IMG/VR virus record: IMGVR_UViG_3300043436_002687
Span: 1 to 42,188 of that record
Origin: a virus
Direction: 5' to 3' (one strand)
DNA: 42,188 bases
Part shown: positions 4,529 through 42,188 of the stretch, in pieces
How the letters are laid out: each line of letters begins with the position of its first letter
Numbering within the stretch: the stretch's first letter is position 1
Notes under the pieces: model-generated
Told to the model about the DNA's origin: nothing
Database searches by the model: none
What the model saw: the letters and a program-made list of their open reading frames with translations, nothing else
Translations under genes and position numbers: made by a program

Positions 4529-4858
4529 ATGAATCAAATTGTGGGGGCAAGCGGAGAGGGTGCTGCATTATTATGCCTGTTTCAGATAGCGATAGTGTCG
4601 GCAATGCTATCATTGTTCTTGGATTACCTGATGGATCATATGCCGCCTTTCCAATGGTATCTAAGTCAGTTAAGCCAACTGCCCGAAAACATCGCAAAGC
4701 CGTTAGGTGAATGCCTCTTTTGCTCTGGTGCATGGCAGTATCTCATTATTTCAATTTTCCTCTTTAATCAACCTTTATGGCTTTCAATATTTGGCCTTGG
4801 AATAAACCACATAAGCCTCAAACTACTGGCATACTTACGTCAGAAGATCAACCTATAA
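4529..4858 (+). CDS. Small multi-pass membrane protein (DUF1360-like)
   Basis: The 109-residue protein has about three hydrophobic segments (residues 10-30, 64-82 and 84-98) and the motif PLGECLFCSGAW, similar to the CxxC-GxW motif of DUF1360 membrane proteins. The role is unknown. Its last 82 bases overlap the start of the tail assembly chaperone gene, which is longer than any other overlap in this operon. An alternative frame at 4516-4710 covers the same DNA but has no recognisable features. Confidence 0.55.
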   Translation: MNQIVGASGEGAALLCLFQIAIVSAMLSLFLDYLMDHMPPFQWYLSQLSQLPENIAKPLGECLFCSGAWQYLIISIFLFNQPLWLSIFGLGINHISLKLLAYLRQKINL

Positions 4859-17903: not shown

Positions 17904-18766
17904 CCGAGAAGCAACTTGATATAATCAAACGGATTCAGACTCTTCAGGCTGAACTGGAAGAGGGCATGAATTCACGATTGCCTGAGATCTTCAAAGGGTT
18001 GTCCGATCAGGTTATTGAACTGACCAATGACCTGCCACTTGACCCGAAGAAAAGGGCCGCAAACATCAGGGCCATCATCGGGTTGAAAATACAATTGACC
18101 AAAGTCATTGTCACCAATCCTGAATACGTAAAAGAAGTTGGTCGGGTTTTGGATGGGTTTAAAGACTTGAAGAAACTATCTGACCTCTACTTTAGCGAAC
18201 TCATTGACGGGTTCAATGCGAAAGAGGTGTTATATCAGGAAATCCTAAAAGCCAATATCGAAATCACAAAGGATATGCTTTTGGGGAGTGGAATCAGGAA
18301 TAACTTTGCGAATAGTATCCAAGAGGTGCTTAAGGCCAATGCAGCCGGAACTACTAACCGGACATTGCTGCAAAAGACTTTGAAAGAGTTCATAGAAGGC
18401 ACGGATGCAGAAAAGGCATACCTGAACCGATATATTAAGCAAACGACCTCAGATGCCATTATGACCTTCAGCAGGGAGTATGACAATACCATTGCTGCGG
18501 ATCTCAATTTACAATTCTACTTTTATGCCGGAACATTGATTAAAGATTCCCGGCAGTTTTGCAGAGCCAGAGCAGGAAGGTATTTCAAGAAATCCGAGGT
18601 GGAAAATTGGGCTAACTTGGGGAATTGGGACGGGAGAAAAGCAAATACCACCAAAAGCACCATTTTTGCCTACTGCGGTGGATGGGGTTGCAGGCATCAA
18701 CTGCATCCGATCAGTCAAACTCAGTATCGGGTTGCAGAGAAAAAAGGGCTTACGGGGTTAAAGTGA
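17900..18766 (+). CDS. MuF-like minor head protein
   Basis: The 288-residue protein has a helical N-terminal region and the C-terminal signature of phage Mu F-type head proteins: DSRQFCRARAGRYF around residues 214-227, then WDGRK and a final YCGGWGCRHQLHPIS. These proteins assist head morphogenesis and are encoded next to the portal. The ATG overlaps the portal stop by four bases. Its stop overlaps the convergent HNH gene by nine bases, so the homing gene has inserted right at the end without disrupting it. Confidence 0.85.
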   Translation: MTEKQLDIIKRIQTLQAELEEGMNSRLPEIFKGLSDQVIELTNDLPLDPKKRAANIRAIIGLKIQLTKVIVTNPEYVKEVGRVLDGFKDLKKLSDLYFSELIDGFNAKEVLYQEILKANIEITKDMLLGSGIRNNFANSIQEVLKANAAGTTNRTLLQKTLKEFIEGTDAEKAYLNRYIKQTTSDAIMTFSREYDNTIAADLNLQFYFYAGTLIKDSRQFCRARAGRYFKKSEVENWANLGNWDGRKANTTKSTIFAYCGGWGCRHQLHPISQTQYRVAEKKGLTGLK

Positions 18767-19342
18767 TTCATAATCCGAAATTGGTAATCCTTTTGATAGT
18801 AGGGCATTTAAAAGGCGGATTTTAGCTTCTTCTAGTGTTTTAGAATCACGTGTAAAAAATAATTTACCTTCAAAAGTAAATCTGCCTTGGTATCGCATAC
18901 GTTTTTTATGAAAACTTATCCCTACCAGTCCATACATATTGGTTTTCTTTTTTGAATAAACAACATTCCCTCGTTGAGTTGTCCATTCTAGATTTTTATA
19001 GAAATTGTTTGTTTTGTTTTCGTCTAAATGGTTTACTACATTCTGTTCTTTTTTTTGCAGAATAAAGTGACTCGCAACCAATGAGTGGACGGTAAAAGCC
19101 GTTTGTTCCCCATTTTTCCATAAACAAACCATTTCATATTGTTTATTTATAGCTAATGGAGTTGGTTTTATTTTACCTTCAATTGTTCTATTTCTATATT
19201 GGATAACTCTTGAATGAGAAAAAATTCTACCAAAAGAACTTATAGAATATTGCCCCTCAAACCCTTCTATATCTTTCCATTCTTCGACATAAAGAACTCC
19301 GTCATGCAAACGGGTAAGTAATTCAACTTCTTGAATATTCAT
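18758..19342 (-). CDS. HNH homing endonuclease with NUMOD4 motif (copy 1)
   Basis: This 194-residue protein starts with a NUMOD4-type segment (WKDIEGFEGQYSISSFGRI) that contacts DNA. An HNH core follows: H at HSLVASHF, then VVNHLDENKTNNFYKNLEW. The C-terminal part (YGLVGISFHKKRMRYQGRF) looks like an AP2-type DNA-binding segment. Such free-standing phage endonucleases cut alleles lacking them and spread by repair. The ATG at 19342 follows a pseudoknotted leader RNA. It lies between the MuF and 19488 genes, opposite to both, and has its own promoter. Confidence 0.88.
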   Translation of the reverse strand: MNIQEVELLTRLHDGVLYVEEWKDIEGFEGQYSISSFGRIFSHSRVIQYRNRTIEGKIKPTPLAINKQYEMVCLWKNGEQTAFTVHSLVASHFILQKKEQNVVNHLDENKTNNFYKNLEWTTQRGNVVYSKKKTNMYGLVGISFHKKRMRYQGRFTFEGKLFFTRDSKTLEEAKIRLLNALLSKGLPISDYESL

Positions 19343-19349
19343 AAAATTT

Positions 19350-19440
19350 AAAAGCCCAGTCAAAATGGGTAGAGGGCCACTTCAACTAGGCTTTAAAGGT
19401 TTTACAACCAAAATCTTTAATCGGAAAGCCTCTACTCTTT
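19350..19440 (-). ncRNA. Pseudoknotted 5' leader RNA of HNH gene 1
   Basis: On the minus strand helix a pairs GTAGAGG (19429-19435) with CCTCTAC (19369-19375). Helix b pairs AAAGCCTAGT (19385-19394) with ACTGGGCTTT (19351-19360), ten pairs with one G-U. One b strand lies inside helix a and the other outside, so the fold is an H-type pseudoknot. A GGTT/AACC hairpin sits in the loop of a. The leader ends 8 bases before the ATG behind TAAATTTT. Confidence 0.65.
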
Positions 19441-19448
19441 TCGATGCC

Positions 19449-19456
19449 CAAATTTA
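19449..19456 (-). promoter_or_regulatory. -7 promoter box for HNH gene 1
   Basis: The minus strand reads TAAATTTG, a perfect TAnnTTTG core, about 13 bases upstream of helix a of the leader RNA. Confidence 0.6.
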
Positions 19457-19487
19457 AGTTTTATCCGTATTTTTACAAAAAAAAGTT

Positions 19488-22525: not shown

Positions 22526-22558
22526 TTTGGAAAATTAAGTTTTTGTCTGCGTAAAAAG

Positions 22559-23080
22559 TTAAAAAGACCAGTAATAGCCTCCTGCGGTTTTTCTTTTATT
22601 TGTAGCTGATCTTGCTTGACAAATTGATTGTCTGCAAATGCCGGTAATTTTAGATGCCTCTGTTGCTGAATAAAAAGCTATTAAAAATAAGCCCTCAGGG
22701 CTTAGCATTATTGCTGGCTTATTCAACCAATTATCTTTTGAGTCAATAAGTTGAGATGGGGCTTTTCGACCACAAATCTTATATGAATGAGAAAGATTTT
22801 CAGACTGAGTGACCCATTCAAGATTCTCAATTCTATTGTCGGTTTTAATGCCGTTAATATGATTGACTTGCGGCTTGTTCTCTGGATTACAAATAAATGT
22901 AATGGCAATTGCTCTATGGCAAATCACATTTACCGTTTTTCCATTAACGGATAAGTTTAAAAATAAGTATCCGTCTTTTGTCCTTTGAGGCTTTCTTTCT
23001 TTGCCTTTAAATTTAAAAATTCCACAAGGAGAAATTTCTATTTCAATCCCAGAGTGGTGTATAAATTTTGAAAATTCCAT
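22559..23080 (-). CDS. HNH homing endonuclease with NUMOD1-like C-terminus (copy 2)
   Basis: The 173-residue protein carries the HNH_3 core HRAIAITFICNPENKPQVNH followed by DNRIENLEWVTQ. A C-terminal NUMOD1-like helix-turn-helix (YSATEASKITGICRQSI) ends in GGYYWSF. The ATG at 23080 is chosen because upstream in-frame codons are part of the structured leader. The gene separates a glycosyltransferase from the FkbM gene in an operon otherwise built of overlapping genes. Nucleotide identity with copy 3 is high in the HNH core, so the two copies share a recent origin. Confidence 0.88.
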   Translation of the reverse strand: MEFSKFIHHSGIEIEISPCGIFKFKGKERKPQRTKDGYLFLNLSVNGKTVNVICHRAIAITFICNPENKPQVNHINGIKTDNRIENLEWVTQSENLSHSYKICGRKAPSQLIDSKDNWLNKPAIMLSPEGLFLIAFYSATEASKITGICRQSICQARSATNKRKTAGGYYWSF

Positions 23081-23087
23081 AAAAAAA

Positions 23088-23182
23088 GATTGCCCCAACT
23101 GCAAAGGCTCGTCCGACTTCCGAATGGAAATAGGCAATGCAGAGGGGGCAAAGTTTTTTGAGGTTTTCATATCGGACGAGCA
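23088..23182 (-). ncRNA. Pseudoknotted 5' leader RNA of HNH gene 2
   Basis: Minus-strand helix a: GCTCGTCCGA (23172-23181) with TCGGACGAGC (23107-23116), ten perfect pairs. Helix b: TTGCCCC (23145-23151) with GGGGCAA (23090-23096). Hairpin c: TTCC/GGAA (23118-23129), one base from helix a. One b strand is inside a, the other follows it, giving a pseudoknot. An A-rich joint TATGAAAACCTCAAAAAAC lies between a and b, and TCTTTTTTT between b and the ATG. All three helices recur with other bases in the leader at 25857-25950. Confidence 0.75.
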
Positions 23183-23185
23183 ATA

Positions 23186-23193
23186 CAAAGATA
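23186..23193 (-). promoter_or_regulatory. -7 promoter box for HNH gene 2
   Basis: Minus strand TATCTTTG, a perfect TAnnTTTG core, placed five bases after the stop of the upstream glycosyltransferase and four bases before helix a of the leader. Confidence 0.6.
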
Positions 23194-23198
23194 TTAAA

Positions 23199-23873
23199 TT
23201 ACAGCAATTTATGAAGCTGAGTTTTTAATCTTTTATAAAGATTCTCGTCATGTCGCCAAAGCAAATCATTCTTTTTGTATTGCTGATCAGATTGTGCTTT
23301 GCCATAACTCGGGTGAAGATGGTCGAAGATAACGTCCGGTATAAACCGATAACACCCTCTTGCCTTTGCAAGGTCTTGTGAGAGGTTGTCACAATAAAAA
23401 CTTTTGAATCTTGGATCGTAGATAAACCCATCCCGTTTAAAGTAATCCTGACCGATAATTGACAAGGTGCAAAGGGCATCAATTGGATCGTGGTTTGTAT
23501 CTCTGAAATGCAAAAACAAATCCGTTCCATTGGCGAATTTAAACGCATCAATGATTTTCTGATCAAATCCTTTGACTGTGAATACTTGGTCGTCGGAAAC
23601 ATTAACCAGAATATCCCAAAAGGTGAAGTGTTGCAAATCCCTGTTTATGGCATCAATCTTGTTTTTTGATTTGCCATAAAATACACTTAACTCAATCCAA
23701 AAATTCTCATTAATCCATTCTGTAAATGCCGGATTATTCACCGTCTTATCGTCCTCATCCAAAGTTAGGCAAATAAGGTAGTTGGGATTCGTGGACATTT
23801 CCTGAATGTTCAAAAGCGTTCTTTTCAGGTTGTCGGGCCGTGAACGTGATGTGACTTTATACAGGATTTTCAT
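23199..23873 (-). CDS. GT-A type glycosyltransferase
   Basis: The 224-residue protein starts with a family 2-like strand MKILYKVTSRSRPDNL, and has an acidic stretch DEDDKT at about 39-44 and a metal-binding SDDQ at 93-96. There is no membrane segment. It starts 17 bases inside the end of the 23857 gene, as is usual in this operon. The HNH gene 2 leader promoter begins directly after its stop codon. Sugar specificity cannot be read from the sequence. Confidence 0.75.
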   Translation of the reverse strand: MKILYKVTSRSRPDNLKRTLLNIQEMSTNPNYLICLTLDEDDKTVNNPAFTEWINENFWIELSVFYGKSKNKIDAINRDLQHFTFWDILVNVSDDQVFTVKGFDQKIIDAFKFANGTDLFLHFRDTNHDPIDALCTLSIIGQDYFKRDGFIYDPRFKSFYCDNLSQDLAKARGCYRFIPDVIFDHLHPSYGKAQSDQQYKKNDLLWRHDENLYKRLKTQLHKLL

Positions 23874-24243
23874 TTTTCAATTCTAATTCGGTTCCGGTCA
23901 ATGCGAAGTAAAGGTTCATCAACTGATGAACATACTTAAGCGGCTCACCATATTCTTGCCCAACATAATTATCAGGGATATAAAGCGAAAACTCATCCTC
24001 TGACTGTTGGATTTCAAACCAGTCTTTTCTCCAGTATATCCCCCTATCAAACCCAAACTTCAAAAGCCAATCTTCTGTGATGGGAATTCCAAATAGATAA
24101 TCCAATTGACTAATTGTATCTGACTTGTCTATTACTGTTTTGGTAAATGAATTGATACAGGTAATTTCAAAAATATCAAATCCAATTCCATCACTTGATT
24201 CATAAACCAGATTCCCAATCCGTAATTCGTTTGCTTTAATCAT
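23857..24243 (-). CDS. Conserved phage hypothetical protein
   Basis: The 128-residue protein begins MIKANELRIGNLV and ends with LKYVHQLMNLYFALTGTELE. This layout is widespread in phages and prophages of Bacteroidota, but its role is unknown. The ATG overlaps the stop of the upstream 44-residue gene as ATGA, and the end overlaps the next glycosyltransferase by 17 bases. Confidence 0.7.
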   Translation of the reverse strand: MIKANELRIGNLVYESSDGIGFDIFEITCINSFTKTVIDKSDTISQLDYLFGIPITEDWLLKFGFDRGIYWRKDWFEIQQSEDEFSLYIPDNYVGQEYGEPLKYVHQLMNLYFALTGTELELKNENPV

Positions 24244-24374
24244 TTTCGTTTTTTGAATTCAATGTATAAAAATCCGTCTTTGTCTGGTTGCTCTAATTTA
24301 ATCATCCGATAGCCTTTTATTGCCGGACATTTAACTCCAACATATCCTTCGATTTCTTTCTTTTTTGCTTTCAT
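24240..24374 (-). CDS. Very small basic protein (44 residues)
   Basis: The frame encodes MKAKKKEIEGYVGVKCPAIK followed by a short basic and aromatic tail ending FKKRK. It is joined to both neighbours by ATGA overlaps (start with 24371 gene stop, stop with 24243 gene start), which strongly supports real translation. It would otherwise be the only gap in this part of the operon. Function unknown. Confidence 0.65.
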   Translation of the reverse strand: MKAKKKEIEGYVGVKCPAIKGYRMIKLEQPDKDGFLYIEFKKRK

Positions 24375-24670
24375 TTTCTCTTCAGTTTTCCTTGTTCAAA
24401 AAAGTCCTTATGTTCTGGAAAATTAGCGGTGAAAAGTCTGGAGTACATGGATGAATAGTCGTTGTTGATTTTGAAGTCTAGACCTCCACGAATAGCCGTA
24501 TTAAACCGGATTGTGTGCAATATAGCATCTGCGCTGAAATGCGACCTACCCGCCTTTATCAGTTGAAAGGAGAGGGTTTTAAATGCCTCCCAAATCTCTG
24601 GATTCTTTGCGTGATACTTTTCGAATTTGACCTGTTTCGGGTCAATTTCAAAGATTGATAGTTGGTTCAT
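24371..24670 (-). CDS. Conserved phage hypothetical protein
   Basis: The 99-residue protein contains WEAFKTLSFQLIKAGRSHFSA followed by IRF and a C-terminal FPEHKDFFEQGKLKRK. This pattern (a helical domain with AGRxHFS-x-AI-x-RIR) is common in small proteins of many phages and may be a DNA-binding fold, but no function is established that I know of. It overlaps both neighbours as ATGA. Confidence 0.7.
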   Translation of the reverse strand: MNQLSIFEIDPKQVKFEKYHAKNPEIWEAFKTLSFQLIKAGRSHFSADAILHTIRFNTAIRGGLDFKINNDYSSMYSRLFTANFPEHKDFFEQGKLKRK

Positions 24671-25341
24671 GGCTTTACGTGCCTACCATTTCCACCCGAA
24701 TGTACGCAGAAGCCTTCCAACAACGTTGCAGCCCGAAACCCATTCTTAAAATACTTCTTCCCGACAAGTTGTTCAGCCTGTAATGGATTTGACGGACTCC
24801 AATGGATTTCAGAGTACATCCCATTTGGAAAGAGTTTTTGGTAATCGGACAACCTGCGAAGACCAGGATTGAAAGAATGCCCATGCCAGACACCACGATA
24901 GCCCGTTTTCATCATTTGATACTTCACCCCGTCAGATGTCTTTTGAACCTGTCCTGATGCCGGATGACCGTTGCGGTCGTTTGGTTCACGAATCCAGACC
25001 TGACTAATCATTGGGTTTTCTTTCAAGATTGAAAGTGACTTTTGGATGAATCCGGTTTTGGTAAACGTCCAATCGTCTTCTAAAAACATGATGTATTCAT
25101 TCTCAACTTTTGAGTAAAGAGAATCAATCGCAAAAATTTGACCTGTCTTTTTTAATGGTTCAATCCATTTTATAAATGGGAACTCTGTTTTAAAATACTC
25201 AGGGATTGGTTGTCCAGAATCTTCGTAGACCCAAAAGTTTGCAATCGGTAAATCAGCAAACTCAAAAAATGAACTAAGCGTTGTGGAAAGCAAATCCCAT
25301 CTTCCGCAACTTGTTAAAATGCAATCTATTTTCTTTTCCAT
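24667..25341 (-). CDS. GT-A type glycosyltransferase
   Basis: This 224-residue protein has an N-terminal strand KIDCILTSCGR typical of GT-A enzymes and an acidic EDDW motif at 88-91 that should hold the metal and nucleotide-sugar. Two conserved-looking stretches (HGHSFNPGLRRLSDY and HSGGNGRHVKP) lie in the C-terminal acceptor half. The ATG at 25341 overlaps the end of HNH gene 3 by 16 bases, so the homing gene has settled flush with this start codon. Substrate unknown. Confidence 0.75.
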   Translation of the reverse strand: MEKKIDCILTSCGRWDLLSTTLSSFFEFADLPIANFWVYEDSGQPIPEYFKTEFPFIKWIEPLKKTGQIFAIDSLYSKVENEYIMFLEDDWTFTKTGFIQKSLSILKENPMISQVWIREPNDRNGHPASGQVQKTSDGVKYQMMKTGYRGVWHGHSFNPGLRRLSDYQKLFPNGMYSEIHWSPSNPLQAEQLVGKKYFKNGFRAATLLEGFCVHSGGNGRHVKP

Positions 25342-25850
25342 ATAAACCCATGTGCTGATTTTTGAAGACCTGATATGCAATTCATAATGCAGCCCTGACG
25401 AAATCCAAGTTCTCTTGTCGGATGCCTACTTGATTCCCATTCCCGTATAAATTCCCCTGATTTAGAAAGTTGAATTATTGGCTTGCTTCTTTTGTCGTTT
25501 TTGCCTTTTGGAAGAACTTTTAAGCCAGTTCGATAAGCGTGTATATTATTCTCTAAAGCTGTGCACCATTCAAGGTTTTCAACTCTGTTATCGGATGTTA
25601 TCCCGTTAATATGATTGACTTGCGGTTTGTTCTCTGGATTTGGGATAAAGGCAATAGCTACCAGCCTATGAACTGTTTTGCTGATAAAATTTCCATTAAT
25701 TTTAATGGCTACCTCTGGATATCCACGATTCAATCCAGTTTTTAAGACCTTGCCAGATTTGTTTTTGCCGAACGATATTACACGGCCAAAATTCGAAACC
25801 AACATTTTAAAGTCGCATTCAGCAACTTCTTTCCAGATTTCATTTTCCAT
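25326..25850 (-). CDS. HNH homing endonuclease with NUMOD4-like N-terminus (copy 3)
   Basis: The 174-residue protein starts ENEIWKEVAECDFKMLVSNF, a NUMOD4-like segment, and carries the HNH_3 core HRLVAIAFIPNPENKPQVNH plus DNRVENLEWCT. The C-terminal region (IIQLSKSGEFIREWES...) resembles a NUMOD1 DNA-binding unit. Its core is closely related to copy 2, also at the DNA level. The ATG at 25850 lies 8 bases after a pseudoknotted leader. It interrupts the operon between the 25970 and 25341 genes. Confidence 0.88.
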   Translation of the reverse strand: MENEIWKEVAECDFKMLVSNFGRVISFGKNKSGKVLKTGLNRGYPEVAIKINGNFISKTVHRLVAIAFIPNPENKPQVNHINGITSDNRVENLEWCTALENNIHAYRTGLKVLPKGKNDKRSKPIIQLSKSGEFIREWESSRHPTRELGFRQGCIMNCISGLQKSAHGFIWKRK

Positions 25851-25856
25851 AAAAAA

Positions 25857-25951
25857 CATTGGCCCTACCCCAAAGGCGTATCCGTCTGCCGACAGGCAAA
25901 AGGCAATGAGGCAGGAACCAAGATTTTTGATGTTTTCATAACGGATACGCA
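25857..25951 (-). ncRNA. Pseudoknotted 5' leader RNA of HNH gene 3
   Basis: Minus-strand helix a: GCGTATCCGT (25941-25950) with ACGGATACGC (25876-25885), ten perfect pairs. Helix b: TTGGTTC (25915-25921) with GGGCCAA (25859-25865), with two G-U pairs. Hairpin c: TGCC/GGCA (25887-25898), one base from helix a. The A-rich joint TATGAAAACATCAAAAATC and the bases CATTGCCT in the loop match the leader of HNH gene 2, while all three helices differ by compensatory changes. Confidence 0.75.
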
Positions 25952-25954
25952 TTT

Positions 25955-25962
25955 CAAATATA
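25955..25962 (-). promoter_or_regulatory. -7 promoter box for HNH gene 3
   Basis: Minus strand TATATTTG, a perfect TAnnTTTG core, four bases before helix a of the leader RNA. Confidence 0.65.
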
Positions 25963-34718: not shown

Positions 34719-34726
34719 TATATTTG
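34719..34726 (+). promoter_or_regulatory. -7 promoter box for the DUF6291 leader RNA
   Basis: TATATTTG, a perfect TAnnTTTG core, overlaps the stop of the 34083 gene and precedes the pseudoknotted leader. Confidence 0.65.
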
Positions 34727-34741
34727 CAATGCCGAAAGGCC

Positions 34742-34831
34742 AGCGGGGTAGGAGCCGTCTGAAAAATCTTGGTTTAAAACCAACAAAGCCTGTCTGATGG
34801 AGACTCCTACCTCCTGATGACGGGCTTCTTT
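34742..34831 (+). ncRNA. Pseudoknotted 5' leader RNA of the DUF6291 gene
   Basis: Helix a: GGTAGGAG (34747-34754) with CTCCTACC (34804-34811), eight perfect pairs. Hairpin: TTGGTTTAAAACCAA (34769-34783). Helix b: AAGCCTGTC (34786-34794) with GACGGGCTT (34819-34827), nine pairs with one G-U. One b strand lies inside a and the other after it. The leader shares AAAGCCT, the GGTT/AACC hairpin and GGGCTT with the HNH gene 1 leader. It ends 9 bases before the ATG behind CTTTATTTT. The b helix plus U-rich tail could also act as a terminator. Confidence 0.75.
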
Positions 34832-34836
34832 ATTTT

Positions 34837-35499
34837 ATGGCAGTTGATAAAAATTCTATCATAGTTTATGCCGATTGGATTGAACTATTTGAGAACCTAA
34901 GCGATGATGAGGCCGGAAGGTTGATTAAACATTTTTTTCGATATGTAAATGATCAAAATCCAGAGCCACCGGATAGGCTGACTGAATTGGCATTTATCCC
35001 CATCAAAACATCATTAAAACGGGATTTAAAGAAGTGGGAAGGCACTAAGGAAAAGCGTTCAATTGCGGGATTAGCTAGTGCAGCCGCAAGGAAAACAGCT
35101 AAAGAAGAAAGTGAACAAAATTCAACAAAATCAACAAGTGTTGAAAGTGTTGAACAAAACCAACAAGAGGCAACAAATCCAACTGTTAGTGTTAGTGTAA
35201 CTGTAAGTGATAGTGTAAGTGTTACTGATACTGTTATTAATACAATTAAAGAGCGCAAACAAAAGTTTGCTTCCACTCTCGAACCTTTCCAGAAATTATA
35301 TCCTAAACAAATGCTTTCTGATTTTTACAAATATTGGGGCGAACTCAATAAGTCAGGAACTAAATTCAAGCAGGAACTTGAAAAGACCTGGGATTTGGAA
35401 AGAAGACTTGAAATGTGGGCAAGACGTGATAAAGACTTTAATAAAAACCAACCTCAATCCGGCCCTCTTAGCTTTTCATCCAAAAACATGAACCGATGA
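34837..35499 (+). CDS. DUF6291-type replication protein
   Basis: The 220-residue protein has the DUF6291 N-terminal domain (NSIIVYADWIELFENLSDDE...GRLIKHFFRYVND, residues about 5-75), a low-complexity linker of S, V, T and D (about 115-138), and a C-terminal helical domain (FYKYWGELNKSG...DLERRLEMWARRD). Such proteins are found before DnaB-type helicase genes and are thought to act as replication initiators or helicase loaders. The stop overlaps the helicase ATG (ACCGATGACA). It starts directly after a pseudoknotted leader. Confidence 0.75.
   Translation: MAVDKNSIIVYADWIELFENLSDDEAGRLIKHFFRYVNDQNPEPPDRLTELAFIPIKTSLKRDLKKWEGTKEKRSIAGLASAAARKTAKEESEQNSTKSTSVESVEQNQQEATNPTVSVSVTVSDSVSVTDTVINTIKERKQKFASTLEPFQKLYPKQMLSDFYKYWGELNKSGTKFKQELEKTWDLERRLEMWARRDKDFNKNQPQSGPLSFSSKNMNR
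35182..35237 (+). repeat. Degenerate GTTAGT/GTAACT tandem repeat
   Basis: An imperfect hexamer repeat (pattern TGTNA/AGTG) encodes the linker SVSVTVSDSVSVTDTV in the DUF6291 protein. It is a likely site of slippage and length variation. Confidence 0.7.
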
Positions 35500-42026: not shown

Positions 42027-42188
42027 GCAAATTTTACCCTAAAAATTGTGTAATCAAAACGCCTTGAAAATCAGAGGGATAAAAATTATTTGAAATTTAT
42101 TTTACATTTCTTTTCAAATATGTTTGCAGAATTTAAAAGAAAGGGTTTACTTTGTCTCAACGAAAACAAAAACAGAAAAAAGACATGA
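42027..42188. repeat. Right end overlap, block 2 (matches 592-753)
   Basis: See the block at 592-753. The window ends one base after the ATG that corresponds to the gene at 750. Confidence 0.9.

Follow-up and report, generated by a model that had tools for sequence, protein, structure and literature searches.

A covarying pseudoknot leader RNA, putatively controlling translation, in front of homing endonuclease and replication genes of Bacteroidota phages

Phage leader RNAs with related architectures

The nearest precedents for the RNA element described here are the leader pseudoknot of phage T4 gene 32 and the hairpins that cover ribosome-binding sites of T4 homing endonuclease genes. The former is an H-type pseudoknot in the 5' leaders of phages T4 and T2, where it serves autoregulation by gp32 (PMC3014915). 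The latter are found in T4 and Aeh1, in which RNA hairpins sequester the ribosome-binding sites of I-TevI, SegB and MobE (PMC2988022). We analysed a viral stretch of 42,188 nucleotides (IMG/VR record IMGVR_UViG_3300043436_002687, hereafter the window), in which an initial annotation had reported a pseudoknot leader in front of two HNH endonuclease genes, HNH2 and HNH3. From its sequence features, this element is fairly probably a cis-acting 5'-leader RNA with its own Bacteroidota-type promoter, wherein a loop-locked pseudoknot keeps the start codon of the next gene closed.

As in gene 32, the pseudoknot is located in a phage 5' leader upstream of an A/U-rich initiation region, and translational control of a DNA-replication protein, putative for the present leaders, would be common to both. 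However, the T4 gene 32 element lies 67 nucleotides from its AUG with A/U-rich repeats in between and serves a single gene, whereas the present knots abut the AUG, carry the extra helices c and d, precede unrelated genes and travel with mobile endonucleases. The pseudoknot and U-rich tract of a gene 32-type operator are both present, but the tract is predicted to be paired, and the sharing of one leader by unrelated products argues against autogenous binding of that type. Structure likewise closes the initiation region in the leaders of I-TevI, SegB and MobE, which are also phage homing endonucleases. There, a simple hairpin covers a Shine-Dalgarno site and late promoters allow escape from it, whereas the present leaders are pseudoknots, have no Shine-Dalgarno site, and belong to cassettes whose own promoter is outside the structure. 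Where the promoter box is present, it is wholly upstream of helix a, unlike the promoter-inside-hairpin arrangement of the T4 type.

Structured RNAs adjoining an HNH-type nuclease gene are also found with IscB and IsrB, namely the HEARO or omega RNAs, which measure several hundred nucleotides and act as guides for large RuvC-HNH nucleases. The leaders described here differ in that they are about 100 nucleotides long and are found in front of genes for small NUMOD/HNH_3 and GIY-YIG proteins and for replication proteins. The STAXI motif (RF01728; PMC2864571) is also a pseudoknot RNA near phage and plasmid genes for DNA-handling proteins, but it consists of tandem pseudoknots with UUCG loops and is found in Enterobacteriales.

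A covarying pseudoknot between promoter and start codon

The two leaders are located on the minus strand where they had been annotated, each starting just after a TAnnTTTG box and ending just before an ATG (Table 1). We scanned 207 candidate ATG starts of the window for the layout a-J1-b-J2-a'-J3-b' ending 5-22 nucleotides before the ATG, with pseudoknot energies (E) computed as simple stacking sums and with 100 dinucleotide shuffles for comparison at each of the four best. Helices a, b and c of both leaders far exceed chance. The initial annotation had recognized only these two leaders, yet the four best upstream pseudoknots of the window include two others, one before a third endonuclease gene (HNH1) and one before a replication-type gene at 34837 on the plus strand. 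There is a TAnnTTTG box shortly 5' of all four, which corresponds to the -7 promoter consensus of Bacteroidota (PMC7366714), and therefore helix a is expected at or near the 5' end of the transcript. The two additional leaders are assigned to class II, which keeps the layout but not the CATTGCC core and is also represented by L163, L166, L170, L089, L098, L075, L206 and other loci. The HNH1 leader is unrelated in sequence to those of HNH2 and HNH3, and it has a close homologue in L015.

There are 22 distinct full copies of the leader in viral contigs, most of them metagenomic, which were collected by pattern scans of IMG/VR and by protein searches. Each virus record has one copy, whereas the window has two. 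The copies occupy a constant place, directly 3' of a TAnnTTTG box in the leaders that have one and directly 5' of an ATG, as is expected of a cis-regulatory leader RNA with covarying structure. A covariance model (R1) built on helices a and c, a check proposed at the outset, retrieves all 22 with scores of 48-117 bits. In locus L123, a second, divergent leader (4675-4802) lies beside a canonical one of the same phage, before another HNH gene, and has a helix a of 14-15 base pairs and a long interrupted helix b.

Covariation strongly supports the model, as had been proposed on the basis of two sequences. In the covariance-model alignment of the 22 copies, 97.5% of cells in helices a and c are paired, with changes on both sides in 14 of 15 pairs. 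Their covariation score is 0.843, compared with 0.04-0.11 for slid partners, and it was reached by none of 500 shuffles; this alignment was fitted to the same two helices, and the slid controls and the plain sequences agree with its result. Helix b is outside the model, and for 12 cluster representatives the pairing of each b with its own b' beats all 20,000 permuted pairings. None of the homologues examined lacks b pairing, the observation that was to have spoken against the RNA.

Another helix outside the model, designated d, had not been annotated. It begins with pairing between CA in CATTGCC and UG in CCUUUG, extends outward by 1-6 pairs, and forms in 86% of cells with 5 of 6 pairs compensated (covariation score 0.58, compared with at most 0.13 for slid partners). 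Only L011 breaks both motifs (TATTGCC, CCTTTA), and it does so with compensation, CTGCA/TGCAG becoming CTGTA/TACAG. Because CA and UG pair and covary, part of the apparent sequence conservation reflects base pairing, and CATTGCCT and CTTTG are not unpaired throughout. Other details of the first model needed adjustment. Helix a has the 10 base pairs described plus a closing U-G or U-A pair that was missed; helix b of HNH3 is real, but it is formed by TTGG-(bulged T)-TCCTGCCTCA with TGGGGTAGGG-CCAA and runs on into helix d. The A-rich joint J1, considered constant, is A-rich throughout the family (60% A) but not invariant.

The comparative sequence model thus predicts that b and d constitute one interrupted hairpin located right before the U-rich tract and the AUG. 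Its predicted loop carries UUGCC, hairpin c and a', and pairing of a' with the 5' end creates the pseudoknot. Minimum free energy (MFE) folding lengthens helix b as far as the AUG through pairs between the A-run and the U-run. In these calculations the two runs seem simply to continue helix b with ordinary A-U pairs, and the triplex suggested initially is not supported by them.

The leaders represent an RNA family that is absent from Rfam, in agreement with the initial view that no described class has this layout. Rfam 15, which includes riboswitches, HEARO, STAXI and ribozymes, gave no match for the window. Each leader alone gave only chance matches at E<=10, and 13 related loci gave none at the gathering threshold. 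Among 396 Bacteroidota genomes, a covariance-model scan that was run without a positive control gave no match. Two pattern matches in bacterial genomes fail to show the helices, and four from a pattern scan of genome contigs are all unrelated. Comparison of the leaders with named phages by blastn produced chance matches only, and a pattern search for class II leaders returned the known L015 copy and chance matches. A ribozyme resembling that of hepatitis delta virus was also considered and rejected, since the strand order is similar to that fold but there is neither a P4 nor a catalytic core.

Table 1. Positions of leader, gene and cassette features in the window (structural elements are predicted; E, stacking-sum energy).
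Feature	Position	Strand	Remark
HNH2 promoter box TAnnTTTG (-7) TATCTTTG	23186..23193	-	consensus PMC7366714
HNH2 leader, predicted transcript region	~23078-23182	-	E -38.2, 0/100 shuffles as good
HNH2 helix a, 5' strand GCTCGTCCGAT	23171..23181	-	
HNH2 A-rich joint J1 ATGAAAACCTCAAAAAAC	23153..23170	-	
HNH2 helix b, 5' strand TTGCCCC	23145..23151	-	
HNH2 helix d, 5' strand CTGCA	23138..23142	-	then conserved unpaired TTGCC
HNH2 hairpin c TTCC-ATTC-GGAA	23118..23129	-	
HNH2 helix a, 3' strand GTCGGACGAGC	23107..23117	-	
HNH2 helix d, 3' strand TGCAG	23099..23103	-	
HNH2 helix b, 3' strand GGGGCAA	23090..23096	-	
HNH2 U-rich tract TCTTTTTTT	23081..23089	-	abuts start codon
HNH2 open reading frame	22559..23080	-	HNH_3 endonuclease, 173 amino acids
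HNH3 promoter box TAnnTTTG TATATTTG	25955..25962	-	
HNH3 leader, predicted transcript region	~25848-25951	-	E -40.4, 0/100 shuffles as good
HNH3 helix a, 5' strand GCGTATCCGTT	25940..25950	-	
HNH3 A-rich joint J1	25922..25939	-	
HNH3 helices b+d, 5' strand TTGGTTCCTGCCTCA	25907..25921	-	
HNH3 hairpin c TGCC-TGTC-GGCA	25887..25898	-	
HNH3 helix a, 3' strand GACGGATACGC	25876..25886	-	
HNH3 helices d+b, 3' strand TGGGGTAGGGCCAA	25859..25872	-	
HNH3 U-rich tract	25851..25858	-	before start codon
HNH3 open reading frame	25326..25850	-	NUMOD4 + HNH_3 endonuclease, 174 amino acids
HNH1 leader, class II (architecture-only)	19343..19456	-	E -34.6, 0/100 shuffles as good; L015 homologue
HNH1 leader box TAAATTTG	19449-19456	-	
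HNH1 helix a GTAGAGG / CCTCTAC	19429-19435 / 19369-19375	-	
HNH1 helix b AAAGCCTAGTTGAAG / TTTTGACTGGGCTTT	19380-19394 / 19351-19365	-	
HNH1 open reading frame	18758..19342	-	NUMOD4/HNH endonuclease, 194 amino acids
Replication leader, class II	34719..34836	+	E -38.2, 0/100 shuffles as good
Replication leader box	34719-34726	+	
Replication helix a GGGGTAGGAG / CTCCTACCTC	34745-34754 / 34804-34813	+	
Replication helix b AAGCCTGTC / GACGGGCTT	34786-34794 / 34819-34827	+	
Replication-initiator-type open reading frame	34837..35499	+	PHROG primosomal protein, ATG 34837
Mobile cassette HNH2 (gene, leader, promoter)	22526..23224	-	missing from relative G017
Mobile cassette HNH1 (gene, leader, promoter box)	18771..19467	-	missing from relative G003

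Initiation determinants and the proposed closed state

Initiation by Bacteroidia ribosomes takes place without Shine-Dalgarno pairing and depends instead on adenines at -3, -6, -12 and -13, on low structure and on the lack of a nearby AUG (PMC9976891). The leaders hold 0.43 of these four adenines, compared with 2.06 in 289 control genes (p=4e-9; p=8e-5 for cluster representatives), and the unpaired probability over -15 to -4 is 0.20 compared with 0.53 in controls (p=2e-11), the controls in both comparisons being unmatched in base composition. Their last 15 nucleotides are 50% U, and there is an upstream AUG in 18 of the 22. Each initiation rule is therefore broken, and for this reason we consider translation to be off by default. 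Computed accessibility and the initiation adenines lend indirect support to a link with translation, one of the roles initially suggested for the RNA.

A transcript from the Bacteroidota-type promoter would begin at helix a, followed by the A-rich joint. The b and d strands would form an interrupted hairpin of 12-15 base pairs whose loop, comprising UUGCC, hairpin c and a', would pair back to the 5' end through helix a and so lock the pseudoknot. The b' strand would then occupy the landing site of the 30S subunit just before the AUG, together with the U-rich tract, for which the A-rich joint is a potential pairing partner. The leader moves with the endonuclease as one cassette of promoter, leader and open reading frame (ORF), and phage replication-initiator genes have the same leader too. 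Because unrelated products share it, the gene product is probably not what opens it; perhaps a factor from phage or host, the passage of a ribosome or the timing of infection has this role. We infer both the default off state and an opening event common to replication and endonuclease genes.

Several points weigh against such a translational gate. The MFE and accessibility calculations consider nested pairs only, and thus the pseudoknot itself is not modelled. Since the transcript from the cassette's own promoter carries the whole structure, the choice of promoter cannot relieve it, in contrast to the hairpins of T4 endonucleases. The pattern searches required CATTGCCT and CCTTTG, and the conservation of these letters among the copies they returned therefore arises partly by construction; the copies free of this selection are L060 and L083, obtained by protein searches alone, and L011 and L119, which deviate from the search motifs. 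Finally, intrinsic terminators likewise consist of a GC-rich hairpin followed by a U-run.

This last point underlies the main rival, in which the leader is a transcription attenuator whose b+d hairpin, between the A-run and U-run and right in front of the ORF, is a conditional intrinsic terminator that helix a stabilises or disturbs by pairing in its loop. In most class I leaders the GC-rich stem is indeed followed by 5-7 U within 8 nucleotides, A-run/U-run pairing lengthens the stem, and the hits of a terminator scan include the b hairpin of HNH1 and short stems from the leaders of HNH2 and HNH3. However, a GC stem with U-tract is not found in all members, as the pseudoknot is kept by four that have no U-run (L083, L145, L123 and L137) and by two in which that run is weak (L059 and L071). 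Moreover, terminator-like matches in the region number 7 compared with 5.4 in shuffles, which is no excess, and an antiterminator would compete with the terminator stem, which helix a does not. We therefore regard attenuation as unlikely. An alternative terminator hairpin, GCCUUUG...GGGC, was rejected because it is not conserved in L015 or L132.

The upstream AUG raises the further possibility of a leader peptide or translational-coupling switch, in which an ORF from the A-rich joint (MKTSK...) is translated through the knot and ribosomes re-initiate at the main AUG. The ATG in J1 of 18 of 22 leaders begins a frame that is mostly open to about 20 nucleotides from the main ATG, with overlaps such as ATGA and TAATG. 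However, a control frame is likewise open in 13 of the 22 leaders, the peptide is not conserved, since CATTGCC falls in three different frames, L119 shifts the frame by 2 nucleotides yet keeps hairpin c, and L083, L145, L153 and L137 have no ATG. Such coupling is accordingly quite improbable. A specific peptide, MKTSKx6LPx8-9PL, fit the first six copies with spacings in multiples of 3 and was abandoned because L119 and the copies without frame or ATG break it. In the window (23001-23228, reported for the plus strand), the MKTSK... frame is present in J1 of both leaders, and that of HNH2 is in frame with the endonuclease.

The conserved unpaired UUGCC and CUU, the compact pseudoknot adjoining the AUG and the lack of Shine-Dalgarno use by Bacteroidia ribosomes (PMC9976891) could also be expected of a metabolite riboswitch, or of an autonomous translation enhancer that docks ribosomes on phage genes in such bacteria. 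Class II leaders nevertheless keep the architecture without those nucleotides, the initiation determinants are poorer than in control genes, and the targets are not metabolic genes. Both forms of this explanation are very improbable.

Associated genes and mobility of the leaders

Homing endonuclease genes follow 16 of the 22 copies (14 HNH, 2 GIY-YIG), and replication-initiator genes follow three. Thus, the element is not tied to HNH genes as initially described. Among 162 HNH/GIY-YIG ORFs taken from viral contigs, 30 (18.5%) have an upstream pseudoknot energy of -28 or lower, compared with 25 of 1,473 (1.7%) other ORFs of the same loci, the latter including replication genes. The non-endonuclease proteins of the window (34837) and of L012, L119, L144 and L007 have PHROG matches among primosomal, O-like or replication initiation proteins, and that of L114 matches RecT.

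Comparison of the window with L007 and L252 shows covariation in the replication leader, with helix a changing from GGGGTAGGAG/CTCCTACCTC to GGGGTACGAG/CTCGTACCTC and helix b from AAGCCTGTC/GACGGGCTT to AAGCCTGAA/TTCGGGCTT, both with compensation. Nearly every relative of the replication protein encoded in the window comes from phages of Flavobacterium, Cellulophaga, Olleya, Riemerella and Bacteroides, which indicates a host from the Bacteroidota. The layout is also present upstream of replication-type genes in the cultured Flavobacterium phage 11b (L256 640-768) and Cellulophaga phage phi13:2 (L257 760-901), with 0 of 60 shuffles as good for each.

Nucleotide comparison with related records supports the earlier suggestion that the leader is part of a mobile unit, as empty sites are found. 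Relative G017 has about 22 nucleotides in place of some 700 that contain HNH2, its leader and its promoter. Relative G003 lacks about 700 nucleotides holding HNH1 with its leader and box, and is about 630 nucleotides shorter at the site of HNH3 and its leader. Because ORF, leader and promoter box are missing together, the leader belongs to the mobile cassette. On these alignments, which do not polarise gain against loss, ORF, leader and promoter are present or absent as one unit.

Leaders also recombine away from their ORFs, as judged from near-identical leaders that precede different genes. The leaders of L132 (GIY-YIG) and L141 (HNH) are 95% identical; those of L012 and L119 are 93% identical and precede unrelated proteins; and those of HNH2 and L011 are 91% identical, with proteins 29% identical. 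The replication leader is 81-89% conserved in G015 and G017, where the ORF behind it is non-homologous. In L125 (G003), an HNH2-like leader with a different HNH ORF (1351-1949) is found at a different site and in the opposite orientation to its neighbouring genes. Separately, the window ends share a stretch (~600-740 and 42040-42188, with TATGTTTG context at 684 and 42119), which suggests a terminal repeat or circular contig overlap.

A more speculative proposal, and an unlikely one on present indications, is an RNA phage regulon, in which a single pseudoknot class, common to the replication-initiator genes and the unrelated homing endonucleases of Bacteroidota phages, responds to one shared signal of replication state, such as a phage or host factor. 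Expression of the endonucleases would then be confined to times at which DNA copies suitable for homing are available, and the endonucleases would have acquired the leader from the replication gene.

The leaders would constitute an undescribed class of structured RNA with very strong covariation, in bacteria that make no use of Shine-Dalgarno pairing and in which translational switches are little known. Their architecture recurs across many phages, rides selfish endonuclease genes within a mobile unit and is shared with replication initiators. They may therefore represent an undescribed family of RNA control that links gene homing to virus replication, and the timing of homing endonuclease expression would become testable in culturable Flavobacterium and Cellulophaga phages.

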